From Thermomonas sp. (GTDB lineage Bacteria; Pseudomonadota; Gammaproteobacteria; Xanthomonadales; Xanthomonadaceae): a stretch of 64,000 bases of DNA. The notes beneath the pieces were generated by a model. The model saw only the letters and a list, made by a program, of their open reading frames with translations. It was not told the origin of the DNA and made no database searches. Positions 180-7,353 of this stretch are shown here, piece by piece (the stretch's first letter is position 1; each line of letters starts with the position of its first letter). The DNA lies in assembly GCF_029945965.1 (NCBI RefSeq), contig NZ_JAQSDO010000008.1:1-64000 (forward strand). Reading direction: 5' to 3'. Made by a program: the position numbers and the translations under genes.

Positions 180-285
180 GGATTCAATCTGACAGCTTTG
201 TACAGATATCGACATGAAGTTATTTCAAATCAGTGACTTAAGTCGTTTTTTGGGCAGATCTGGATGGCTCTATACAGCTATTAAA

Positions 286-594
286 TGGGCCCACCAGGAC
301 TCGAACCTGGAACCAAAGGATTCACTTGTCCGGGACTTTCGCCCCGGGGTGGACTATCTCATCACCCTCAGCTTGCGCTGGTGGGGTGCGGGACGCTCTA
401 GCCTGTTATCAAGGGCACTGCAGCCCCCAGGTAGTCTCTGCACCTTCCGGCGGTGTACCGCCGGCTTGGCTCAGGATTGCCGCCGGCCTGACCGCTGCGG
501 TTTCCCTGAATTCATCCCGTTTCTCATCCAGCGATTACGCGCTGGCGTCACCTTTTCGATGAGTCCTCTGCTCTAACCATTGAGCTATAGGCCC
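286..594 (-). tRNA. tRNA with CAU anticodon (probably tRNA-Ile2), split by a group I intron
   Basis: On the minus strand, exon 1 (594-559, 36 nt) and exon 2 (322-286, 37 nt) join to a standard 73-nt cloverleaf: acceptor stem GGGCCTA/TGGGCCC, D arm GCTC/GAGC, anticodon stem GAGGA/TCCTT around loop CTCATAA, T arm CCAGG-TTCGAGT-CCTGG and discriminator A. CCA is not encoded. The anticodon is CAU, which could be elongator Met or the lysidine-modified Ile2. Ile2 is preferred because the D arm and anticodon stem resemble Ile2 genes and because E. coli ileX also lies close to rpoD, as this gene does. The insertion follows the third anticodon base, so the tRNA is functional only after splicing. Confidence 0.9.
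323..558 (-). ncRNA. Group I self-splicing intron in the tRNA anticodon loop
   Basis: The 236-nt insert has group I hallmarks on the minus strand. P1 is formed by exon UCAU and intron GUGA, with the canonical U-G wobble at the 5' splice site, and the intron ends in G (323). P2 is CCAGCG/CGCTGG. The conserved core AATCCTGAGCCAAG lies at 478-465, a 7-bp P6-like hairpin closed by a TACA loop follows, AAGGTGCAGAGACTA lies at 446-432, and its P7 partner GATAGTCC at 358-351. A GAAA-capped P9 hairpin sits near the 3' end. The CAU/GUG pairing and size recall the Azoarcus tRNA-Ile(CAU) intron (about 205 nt, subgroup IC3). It is too small to encode an endonuclease, and ORFs across it are artefacts. Confidence 0.92.
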
Positions 595-664: not shown

Positions 665-1066
665 ATGAAATCCGAAAAATGTGCCACATGCCAACAGCAA
701 CTGAGCGGACGCCAGCGCCGCTTCTGCTCACTGAAGTGCAAGAACGCAGATACCAACGATCGCCATCAGAGCTACCTGAGTCAGCAGAAACGCGGCCTTG
801 CCCGCAAACTGCAATTAGTCGACGAAGTCGGCGGGAGGTGCGTGAAGTGTGGGTACGACCGCAACCTTGCTGCGTTGGCATGGCACCACATCGATCCGCG
901 AACCAAACGGTTCCAGCTCGACTTGCGCTCGCTTTCAAACCGTGGCGAACGGGACATCCGCATCGAGTTGGAGAAGTGCATGCTCGTGTGCGCCAATTGC
1001 CACGCCGAAATCCACTCCCCAACCATGGAAATGTGTGCGCTTCTAAACAAACAAGGCCGCGATTAG
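665..1066 (+). CDS. Free-standing HNH endonuclease-like protein
   Basis: A 133-residue protein begins at ATG 665; an in-frame TTG lies one codon earlier. It carries an N-terminal zinc-ribbon-like segment (CATC ... FCSLKC), a second CVKCGY pair, then the HNH core: WHHIDP with tandem histidines near residue 77, followed by CMLVCANCHAEIH near residues 104-116. This order is typical of small HNH nucleases found free-standing in phages and bacterial chromosomes. The gene diverges from the intron-containing tRNA with only about 70 bp between them and converges on rpoD across a shared terminator. Its substrate is unknown. Cleavage of the intronless tRNA allele is an attractive but unproven idea. Confidence 0.75.
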   Translation: MKSEKCATCQQQLSGRQRRFCSLKCKNADTNDRHQSYLSQQKRGLARKLQLVDEVGGRCVKCGYDRNLAALAWHHIDPRTKRFQLDLRSLSNRGERDIRIELEKCMLVCANCHAEIHSPTMEMCALLNKQGRD

Positions 1067-1095: not shown

Positions 1096-2982
<1,887 letters not shown>

Positions 2983-3022
2983 GGATCGGGCTACCGTGTA
3001 AGTGACGCGAAGGGAACCCAGC

Positions 3023-3031
3023 ATTATACCA
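3023..3031 (-). promoter_or_regulatory. Extended -10 promoter element upstream of rpoD
   Basis: The minus strand reads TGGTATAAT, a perfect TATAAT with an upstream TG (extended -10), about 40 bp before the rpoD ATG. No good -35 match is present at 17-18 bp, which is tolerated by extended -10 promoters. The assignment is by motif and position only. Confidence 0.5.
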
Positions 3032-3144
3032 GCGCTGCCGGGGCTTGGCTTGTAACGAGGCACTGTCCGCTGAACGACACGCCAGCAGGTGTGGGATAAC
3101 CACGCTGGAAAGCGGCTGTCGCGGGTCGGATCAGGAACGGAACG

Positions 3145-3585
3145 TCACGCCTTCAAAAGGAAAGTGACCGGACCGTCATTGACCAGGCTGATCACCATAT
3201 GGGTACCGAACCGCCCGATTTCCACCCCTGGCGGGTGAAGTCCACGACATGTTTCGACCAGACGGTTGAAGCCAAGTTCCGCTTCGACCGGTGCTGCGGC
3301 GGTAGTGAAGCCGGGCCGCATGCCGCTGCGGGTGTCCGCCGCAAGCGTGAACTGGCTGACCAGCAGCAAGCCGCCACCGGTGTCGCTCAATGAGTGATTC
3401 ATCTTGCCGGCATCGTCGGCGAACACGCGATAACCAAGCAGCCTTTGTGCCATCCGCGCGATCTGCACCTCGCTGTCACCGGGCTCGATCGCGACCAATG
3501 CCAGCAGGCCGGGACCAATCGCGCCAACCACGGCATCGTCCACGGCCACCCTGGCTTCAGTCACGCGCTGGATCAAGGCAAGCAT
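3145..3585 (-). CDS. dtd: D-aminoacyl-tRNA deacylase
   Basis: Dtd hydrolyses D-amino acids mis-attached to tRNA, such as D-Tyr-tRNA, in the cytoplasm. The 146 residues match the usual length (about 145). The two motifs that form the cross-dimer active site are present: SQFTL at 77-81 and NDGPVTF at 136-142. The N-terminus MLALIQRVTEARV is typical. It lies upstream of rpoD on the same strand and diverges from the acyltransferase gene with under 40 bp between the starts. Confidence 0.96.
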   Translation of the reverse strand: MLALIQRVTEARVAVDDAVVGAIGPGLLALVAIEPGDSEVQIARMAQRLLGYRVFADDAGKMNHSLSDTGGGLLLVSQFTLAADTRSGMRPGFTTAAAPVEAELGFNRLVETCRGLHPPGVEIGRFGTHMVISLVNDGPVTFLLKA

Positions 3586-5673: not shown

Positions 5674-5739
5674 CGCACCAGCGGGGCGCGGCGCCGGCCG
5701 AACCACGGCAGGCTGCCGTTGGCGCAGGCACGGGATTTG

Positions 5740-7353
5740 TCAGTGCGGCGAGCTACGCAGCTCGCCCTCACCCGGTTGCAGCGGTATTTGTTGCGCTGGT
5801 AGCGCGCGCCATTGTCCAGCGCGCCAGACCTGGATCCAGCGCGTGCGGAAGCGTTGCTGGGTGACCGGCTGCGGGCCCGGCAGCGTCCATGCATCGAGCG
5901 TATTGACCACCAGCAACTGGGTTGGATGCTGCAATGCCCACGCGCGCGCATCGGCCTCGTCGACTACCAGCAATGGCGCGTGCAGTCGGCCGGTGAAGTG
6001 GAATTGCAATTGGTACTCACCCAGGAACGCAACCTGGGTGCCGTCACGTTGCGCGCTGCTGATGACATTTGCCGTCGGGGTGAAATCGAATTGCGACTTC
6101 AACAAGGGCGTGACCGCCGCATGCAGGGTCGCCATCGCCAGCAGCAGGCCGAAGGCATGCACCGACAATGATCTCCAACGCAGCAAGGCGATGCCCAGCA
6201 GCACCAGCACTGCACCTGCGATGGGCATGCTGGTCAGCAGCTCGTCCGGGAATGGCTCGCCAATGTTTCCCGCAAACAGACGTGCACCCAGCATCGCAAT
6301 CCCGGTGAACAGCAAAAGCATTGGCGCAGCGATGCCGAGCCGCGGGCGGGCATCCGCAGCCACCGCCAGCAGTAGCGCGAGTGCCGCGAAATCCGGCAGC
6401 ATGTAATACGGTTGCTTGCCACTGATCAGGCTGAAGGCCAGCACCATCCCGAGTAGCCAGCACCATGCGAAGCGATTGCGGGCATCGCGCCACAGCGCCG
6501 GCACCTGGCTCCACCACCAACGCGACCACCACCACGGTGCCATCAAGGCCATCAGCATCGGCGCGTACCACCACCAGGGCTCGGCGTGGTCGAAACTATC
6601 CTTGATGCGACCGGCGGTCTGGGTGACCAGCAAGGCTTCGCGGTATTCGGGATCGCCCAAGGTCAATGCCGGCACCAGCCACAGCGCGAACAGGCCGATG
6701 CCGGCAAGTGTGGCCAACAGCGTTTTCTTCGCGAATCCCTTGCTGTCCTCGCGCGCGGCCGGATGCCATAGGCGCGCGGTCAGCAATGGCACGCCCAGAT
6801 GTAGAAGCGCGACCGGACCTTTGGCCAGCAGGCCGAAGCCGACCGCCAGCGCGAGCCCTGGCCACCACGGCGCCCAAGCCGCGCCACGACGTCGGCAAAG
6901 CGCCAGCAGGCCGCCAAGCACGGCCACCGTGAGCGGCAGTTCGTACATGACCTGCAACGAGAACATGAAAAAGAACCAGAACCCGGCCATCGCCCATGCG
7001 GTCAATGCCGGCAAGTTCGGGCGCGACGGATACAGGTGCCGTGCAAGCACGCCCGCCTGTGCGATCGCAACAGTGCCCAGCAGCACCATCAGCAACCGCG
7101 GCCAGATGTCGCTGACCCCGCCCACCAGCCAACCGGCATGGATCAGCCACGGCAACAGCGGCGTCTTGTGCGAGTAGGGCGCGCCATTGAACAGCGGCAC
7201 CAGCCAGCTGCCCTGGTCCCACATTTCCCACGCCACCGCGAGCGTGCGCGTGGAATACAGCGGTAGCGGCCCGTGCAGGAAGATCGACAGCAGCGCCAGC
7301 GCGCTCCAGGCCAGCAGCGGCGCGCGCAACGAGGTTAGGGTAGGTCGCGTCAT
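5740..7353 (-). CDS. ArnT-like polytopic glycosyltransferase (GT83/PMT superfamily)
   Basis: A 537-residue integral membrane protein with about 10-12 hydrophobic helices. The first periplasmic loop holds the family's acidic/aromatic region (WEMWDQGSWLVPLFNGAPYSHKTPLLPWL), where the PMT superfamily binds the polyprenyl-phosphate sugar. Later elements LLAKGPVALLHLGVPLL and SGKQPYYMLPDFAALALLLA are typical of ArnT relatives. Such enzymes transfer a sugar (4-amino-4-deoxy-L-arabinose in ArnT) from undecaprenyl phosphate to lipid A or another acceptor on the periplasmic side. The actual sugar here is unknown. A second paralogue lies just downstream of the divergent GT2 gene. Confidence 0.85.
   Translation of the reverse strand: MTRPTLTSLRAPLLAWSALALLSIFLHGPLPLYSTRTLAVAWEMWDQGSWLVPLFNGAPYSHKTPLLPWLIHAGWLVGGVSDIWPRLLMVLLGTVAIAQAGVLARHLYPSRPNLPALTAWAMAGFWFFFMFSLQVMYELPLTVAVLGGLLALCRRRGAAWAPWWPGLALAVGFGLLAKGPVALLHLGVPLLTARLWHPAAREDSKGFAKKTLLATLAGIGLFALWLVPALTLGDPEYREALLVTQTAGRIKDSFDHAEPWWWYAPMLMALMAPWWWSRWWWSQVPALWRDARNRFAWCWLLGMVLAFSLISGKQPYYMLPDFAALALLLAVAADARPRLGIAAPMLLLFTGIAMLGARLFAGNIGEPFPDELLTSMPIAGAVLVLLGIALLRWRSLSVHAFGLLLAMATLHAAVTPLLKSQFDFTPTANVISSAQRDGTQVAFLGEYQLQFHFTGRLHAPLLVVDEADARAWALQHPTQLLVVNTLDAWTLPGPQPVTQQRFRTRWIQVWRAGQWRALPAQQIPLQPGEGELRSSPH

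Follow-up and report, generated by a model that had tools for sequence, protein, structure and literature searches.

The tRNA-Ile(CAU) gene of Azoarcus BH72 carries a small group I intron of subgroup IC3. Crystal structures of the Azoarcus pre-tRNA-Ile are mentioned in PMC3984707 (PMC numbers refer here and below to excerpts of the papers), group I introns in the tRNA-Ile2 genes of Acidovorax and Burkholderia are already in print (PMC8450103), and the excerpt of a 2014 review lists tRNA introns for cyanobacteria, alpha- and betaproteobacteria alone (PMC4033280). Collaborative homing has been described for F-CphI with the psbA intron of cyanophage S-PM2 (PMC6083498), and for T3/T7-like phages, a cyanophage and possibly ICP1 (PMC10448857). 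Here we describe a tRNA-Ile2(CAU) gene that is interrupted by a group I intron and flanked by a gene for a small HNH endonuclease. It lies in a 64,000-nucleotide stretch of the gammaproteobacterium Thermomonas sp. (contig NZ_JAQSDO010000008.1, positions 1 to 64,000), referred to as a whole as the window.

We read the flanking HNH gene and the intron-bearing tRNA-Ile2 as collaborative homing in a bacterial chromosome, with a probability of roughly two in three, and we infer splicing, cutting, protection and co-transfer as follows. The HNH product would most likely act as a free-standing homing endonuclease whose recognition site, in CAU tRNA genes without an intron, is at or close to the point of intron insertion. 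Since the intron interrupts this target, the donor would be protected. When donor DNA meets an intron-free relative, the target would be broken, and repair from the donor would copy both the intron and the HNH gene. To judge by its sequence, the intron is most likely a ribozyme that removes itself after transcription, and in the spliced tRNA, TilS would change CAU to lysidine-AU so that AUA is read. The pairing of an intron with a flanking HNH gene in a bacterial chromosome is likely the new part, collaborative homing having so far been described from phages; in the excerpted open-access literature, we found no report of a flanking endonuclease for a bacterial tRNA intron. The HNH neighbour, absent from an earlier reading made from the letters and open reading frames (ORFs) without database searches (the sequence-only reading), is the most interesting part of the locus, which is laid out as follows in window coordinates:

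286–322, minus strand: 3' exon of tRNA-Ile2, from the sequence and a pairing script; CCA is unencoded and TTT comes next
323–558, minus strand: group I intron of 236 nucleotides (nt), no ORF assigned, from the RF00028 match
548–551, minus strand: internal guide GUGA, forming P1 with UCAU of the 5' exon, read by eye
559–594, minus strand: 5' exon of tRNA-Ile2(CAU), ending in CUCAU, from the sequence and the script; its stems match the 3' exon
665–1066, plus strand: free-standing HNH endonuclease gene, 133 amino acids, ATG at 665, stop at 1064–1066, divergent from the tRNA, from PHROG matches, invariant residues and placement
1048–1078, no strand: 13-bp inverted repeat with a 5-nt loop, the HNH stop codon at the loop, between the HNH gene and rpoD, read by eye
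1096–3063, minus strand: rpoD, the usual upstream neighbour of tRNA-Ile2 (context), from the ORF list and synteny

The tRNA-Ile2(CAU) gene occupies 286–594 on the minus strand and is split after U36. In the 64-kb window, cmscan places RF00028 at 570–330 (minus strand) with 66.5 bits and an E-value of 1.1e-14, covering model positions 1–253 of 253, and this is the single Rfam match over its gathering score (cut-off 50 bits). Once the exons are joined, a script pairs the acceptor stem (7/7), the anticodon stem (5/5) and the T-stem (5/5), with G-U allowed. The intron begins behind CUCAU of the 5' exon and its last nucleotide is G; by eye, GUGA at 551–548 pairs with UCAU in the 5' splice-site helix P1, with a U.G pair at the splice site. 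The sequence-only reading had anticipated this anatomy, and the Rfam check it proposed bears out the group I intron. Its cloverleaf after removal of 236 nt forms in all acceptor, anticodon and T-stem pairs, its P1 wobble and terminal G are present in the sequence, and its placement in the CAU anticodon loop of a tRNA-Ile2 agrees with the insertion after U36 and with the distinctness of this tRNA from fMet and elongator Met. A chance match or a pseudogene was considered and is ruled out by the RF00028 score and the perfect exon stems. The missing CCA (window positions 283–285) is shared with the tRNA-Ile2 genes of L164, L166, L184, L192, L195, L215 and L225 from the same family, with or without an intron.

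The HNH gene lies between tRNA-Ile2 and rpoD. Five PHROG families named HNH endonuclease match the ORF at 665–1066, among them PHROG 2255 (E = 6.3e-18) and PHROG 3106 (E = 1.4e-16). Thirty-three positions are invariant in all 19 aligned relatives, including C59, C62, H74, H75, N111, C112, H113 and H117, and C109 is kept in at least 90% of them. We take HH, N and the two further H to be the HNH motif, and the four N-terminal cysteines are presumably zinc-binding. As to the beta-beta-alpha metal fold of HNH nucleases, the AlphaFold model has a predicted local distance difference test (pLDDT) score of 92.4, and its weak top Foldseek matches (best E = 0.23) include HNH and related nucleases, namely Cap5, Cas9, Gme HNH and T4 endonuclease VII. 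NCBIfam gave nothing over its cut-off for this protein, and a sequence search of solved structures reached a best E-value of 0.11. The G+C content of the gene is 0.56 versus 0.64 for the window. The inverted repeat at 1048–1078, which a terminator scan did not list, is possibly a terminator shared by the two genes. Carriage of the HNH gene on plasmids was tried as an explanation and rejected, with no tblastn match in 72,556 plasmid records.

The HNH gene is tightly associated with interrupted tRNA-Ile2. Within the family, a search with the HNH protein gave matches in 10 of 296 genomes, nine of them directly beside an interrupted Ile2, where the gene is intact in G000, G005, G023, G180, G199, G203 and G260 and a remnant in G043 and G144. 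The tenth match, in G089, is weak (E = 4.7e-4) and looks unrelated; it falls in a 726-residue frame of a genome without an intron match. With G089 set aside and species treated as independent, an HNH gene stands beside Ile2 in 9 of 30 intron genomes versus 0 of 266 others (Fisher test, p = 3.4e-10). A class-wide profile search that was not conditioned on introns matched 3 of 369 genomes, namely the window's own, G612 and G339, the latter two with the order rpoD, HNH, interrupted Ile2; being built on alignment A1, this search favours relatives of the A1 proteins. At the genus level, the Ile2 pattern was found in 16 of 25 genomes, of which five are interrupted with an HNH gene, one is interrupted without it (G150) and ten are uninterrupted without it. 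None of 22 intronless Ile2 loci (10 from the genus and 12 from the family; rpoD inside the stretch in 14) has the HNH gene beside it. One HNH search profile drew on 22 sequences, L065 and the broken copies L150 and L168 among them; alignment A1 and the HNH tree exclude remnants and L065, and the tree includes L219, L232 and L233, which came later than A1.

The intron itself is more widely distributed. RF00028 (E ≤ 0.001) was present in 30 of 296 same-family genomes and in 14 of the 54 genera sampled, and all 30 loci are tRNA-Ile2 with an identical insertion position (29 by script, L175 by eye). A pattern scan of named genomes for Ile2 with a base other than A after CAT returned at least 119 stretches, at least 102 of which hold a complete interrupted Ile2 with an insert of 203–685 nt. 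Seventeen of the 119 were set aside with the complete tRNA not recovered (contig or locus ends, and at least four non-introns: L036, L113, L118 and L135). After removal of six duplicates, 129 nonredundant interrupted loci remained; the set-aside count, these 129 loci and all figures derived from them below are among the matches listed, whose hosts include Lysobacter, Luteimonas, Dyella, Rhodanobacter, Woeseiaceae, Variovorax, Limnohabitans, Runella and Hymenobacter. Of 18 interrupted Ile2 loci from the pattern scan submitted to cmscan, 17 scored over the RF00028 cut-off and one (L099) under it. Across the 129 loci, the intron-final G is universal (129/129), GGUG near the intron 5' end is present in 128, and a P7-type string with ATAGTCC is present in 128 (exception L126). 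Proteobacterial-looking Ile2 introns also turned up in L039, L080 and L063 (Akkermansia, Actinomycetes and Opitutia), where binning contamination is suspected.

The window intron is one more member of a known and widespread class, and the rarity or under-described lineage that the sequence-only reading had proposed is contradicted by these counts. Its xanthomonad-like host was correctly recognised, with identical interrupted loci in Lysobacter daejeonensis (Gammaproteobacteria, Lysobacteraceae), Luteimonas aestuarii and Lysobacter sp. For the transfer it suggested, the evidence is mixed: patchy intron presence and an endonuclease partner point to intron mobility, but across 67 loci intron identity rises with rpoD identity (Mantel r = 0.40, 0 of 2000 permutations), and the intron may therefore have spread in large part locally or by vertical descent. 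tRNA finders overlook or misname Ile2 genes of this kind, as ARAGORN calls intron-free Ile2 “tRNA-Met” and detected no tRNA in the 64-kb window.

Among the 129 loci, 19 have a flanking antisense HNH gene (match of at least 120 residues), three have one inside the intron and three retain short remnants. The flanking genes lie 43–231 bases from the tRNA, measured from the domain end in the 19 loci. Where the locus includes rpoD, the median gap between rpoD and the tRNA is 577 bases with an intact flanking HNH gene versus 220 without, as for an inserted gene. HNH remnants adjoin the introns of L168, L170, L060, L150 and, weakly, L095, and these fit a cycle in which the gene is gained and then decays. 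HNH and intron identities correlate with each other at r = 0.78 versus 0.60 and 0.54 for the two with rpoD (15 loci), and the partial correlation given rpoD is 0.68 (15 loci; a value without permutation p). As all three identities correlate, shared descent explains part of this agreement.

In Bacteroidota, a related HNH gene lies within the Ile2 intron itself. This is the case in Hymenobacter coccineus (L073), Emticicia agri (L121) and a Saprospiraceae metagenome-assembled genome (MAG; L087), whose introns of 665–685 nt all score over the RF00028 cut-off and carry the gene on the sense strand, with the ORF tail reaching the core. The HNH sequence follows the 5' splice site and precedes the guide GGUGCC (+421 to +441), which places it in loop L1. 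In other Bacteroidota (L042, L067, L069, L096, L105 and L148), the intron in this position is short and has no ORF.

Relatives of the HNH protein also occur on viral contigs, with identities of up to 53%. The scan of viral contigs found 213 stretches encoding such relatives, from which 79 loci were kept; merging the viral proteins at 90% identity absorbed 15 of 78 and left 63. Twenty of these 63 distinct relatives reach at least 140 bits, and 16 have a tRNA within 250 bases. The nearest tRNA has a CAT anticodon in 11 of the 16, a number that none of 20,000 draws of random tRNAs from the same loci attained (mean 2.8). Below 120 bits, CAT is nearest in 3 of 23 relatives with a tRNA nearby, and many other tRNAs take that place. 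The CAT tRNAs beside viral relatives have overlapping identities to the window Ile2 and to Met and may be of either type. By eye, viral contig L247 (954–1151 and 1164–1705) contains a group I core and an antisense related HNH gene between apparent tRNA halves. A complete Ile2-type tRNA with an insert of 187–751 nt at the anticodon site was recovered from 24 of 85 viral stretches with the interrupted-Ile2 pattern (including L320, L322 and L324, among L315–L399). For a second batch of 14 viral loci, Rfam returned no group I intron above the cut-off. In the HNH tree, the node of the flanking HNHs with L234 and L239 has a support of 0.07; the node of the three Bacteroidota proteins has 0.71, as does the one that adds L251, L257 and L260 to them. 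We claim no direction of movement between viruses and bacteria.

Two further phage loci deserve mention. In L246, a group I intron at 5683–5884 (minus strand) sits in a Leu-like phage tRNA, near a CAT tRNA and an HNH relative. Klebsiella phage Muenster (L400, approximately 3001–3150) shows, as do other Klebsiella phages, ∼74% identity to the Ile2 5' half plus the intron 5' half; there is no annotated tRNA in that stretch, and a tRNA array close by contains HNH genes.

Taken with the bacterial loci, the viral relatives suggest a phage-associated HNH family specialised on CAU tRNA genes that has at least twice become a partner of same-site Ile2 introns, outside and divergent in Gammaproteobacteria and inside L1 in Bacteroidota; we regard this broader proposition as evenly balanced. 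If true, it would set free-standing and intron-encoded states of one endonuclease family side by side at one target. A free-standing endonuclease that first shares the target of an intron and later enters the intron was proposed on the basis of two phage systems (PMC3984707). With a single HNH family that appears to flank the intron in one phylum and to reside within it in a second, at the same tRNA site, that proposal becomes testable.

The interrupted gene is apparently the only tRNA-Ile2 of its genome. The assembly (3.24 Mb in 20 contigs; completeness 100, contamination 0.16) has one RF00028 match, the window locus alone, and 42 RF00005 matches, all 42 covered by ARAGORN. CAT anticodons occur in two of these 42 tRNAs (L018 and L024), which by their sequence features are presumably elongator Met and fMet; the interrupted tRNA we take to be Ile2 from its own features and by elimination of these two. 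The search for another Ile2 gene that the sequence-only reading had called for found none in the genome, with 0 intact Ile2-type patterns on the forward strand and 0 on the reverse, and there is no tRNA-Ile(UAU) among the 42 RF00005 tRNAs. Its conditional claim that AUA decoding would then depend on splicing is supported, not proven. There is no tRNA-Ile(GAU) among the 42 either, so one expected tRNA or more is absent from the draft, and an assembly gap may hide another Ile2. AUA is rare, accounting for 17 of 685 Ile codons in the 36 window ORFs of at least 250 amino acids, and the genome encodes tilS (TIGR02432, 166.5 bits versus a cut-off of 93.6).

Several observations weigh against collaborative homing. 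The shared locus of intron and HNH gene could come from descent within one clade, and G023 (a MAG; completeness 89, contamination 4) holds both an interrupted Ile2 (L172) and an intact Ile2 pattern (C122:3154–3175). No HNH gene was found at 104 of the 129 interrupted loci. For the protein, Pfam returned no HNH model, its sole match being PLATZ below the cut-off, and Foldseek against the PDB gave nothing at E ≤ 0.001. Among the viral relatives of at least 140 bits, the nearest tRNA is not CAT in five of 16 (ctt, tcc, tat, gat and tct), and four of the 20 have no tRNA within 250 bases. The deep tree nodes linking bacterial and viral proteins have low support, and the HNH of the window type is present in none of the 24 viral interrupted-Ile2 loci, which makes it less likely that intron and HNH gene commonly travel together in phages. 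Lastly, no HNH is recognisable with 21 of the 30 family introns, so the gene is not needed for keeping the intron, and in L234 and like phages an HNH relative adjoins an uninterrupted CAU tRNA, so the intron is not always required for protection.

Such free-standing viral relatives beside uninterrupted CAU tRNAs would also be expected under intronless homing, in which the HNH gene is an independent homing gene inserting beside tRNA-Ile2, and the intron an ordinary tRNA intron, mostly vertical and occasionally transferred, as the correlation with rpoD allows. We nevertheless consider this unlikely, given that the bacterial HNH gene was found only beside interrupted Ile2 (nine of ten family matches, the tenth being weak; three of three in the class; none of the 22 intronless loci). 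Less probable again is turnover of the homing endonuclease gene, an alternative put forward for phages (PMC10448857), by which an ancestral intron lost its own endonuclease and a new free-standing HNH gene was later gained beside it. The Bacteroidota introns with HNH in L1, the short related introns there and the position of ORF-bearing and flanking HNHs in different parts of the tree are in its favour; the low tree supports count against it, as do the 234–277-nt gammaproteobacterial introns with a flanking HNH, in which, without a systematic search, no trace of a former ORF was seen. Turnover alters the history and not the present mechanism. A host or regulatory function for the protein, or one as a splicing helper, instead of homing seems very improbable to us: HNH proteins do have varied roles, and homing cleavage is here predicted from sequence, but the many family introns lacking a recognisable HNH, the truncated copies and the viral relatives in tRNA arrays all speak against such a role. 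Collaborative homing is thus the reading we prefer, and the intact and decaying HNH copies, together with many intron-free relatives that would be natural recipients, bear on the old question of how ORF-less introns move.

Likened by description and not by sequence, the Azoarcus BH72 intron and that of the window are both small group I introns in a pre-tRNA-Ile with a CAU anticodon, in hosts of different classes; to our knowledge, no flanking endonuclease accompanies the former. Bonocora and Shub reportedly described in 2001 the endonuclease of a cyanobacterial tRNA-fMet intron, which is intron-encoded, whereas the gammaproteobacterial HNH gene lies outside the tRNA. The Acidovorax and Burkholderia introns share with the window the tRNA, the group I class and having been missed by tRNA finders; the excerpt of that tRNAscan-SE 2.0 paper (PMC8450103) mentions neither an endonuclease nor Gammaproteobacteria outside Burkholderia-type groups. 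The HNH endonucleases of phage tRNA arrays (PHROG 2255 and 3106) are sequence relatives, free-standing in those arrays with or without introns nearby. A functional parallel is the F-CphI/psbA system, where, as in the proposed pair, the intron would prevent self-cleavage (PMC6083498). The phage systems, as excerpted, concern protein-coding genes of phages and nucleases from other families, whereas here the interrupted gene encodes a tRNA and lies on a bacterial chromosome, and the proposed partner is an HNH protein with an N-terminal CxxC pair, with related HNH genes also found inside same-site introns of another phylum.
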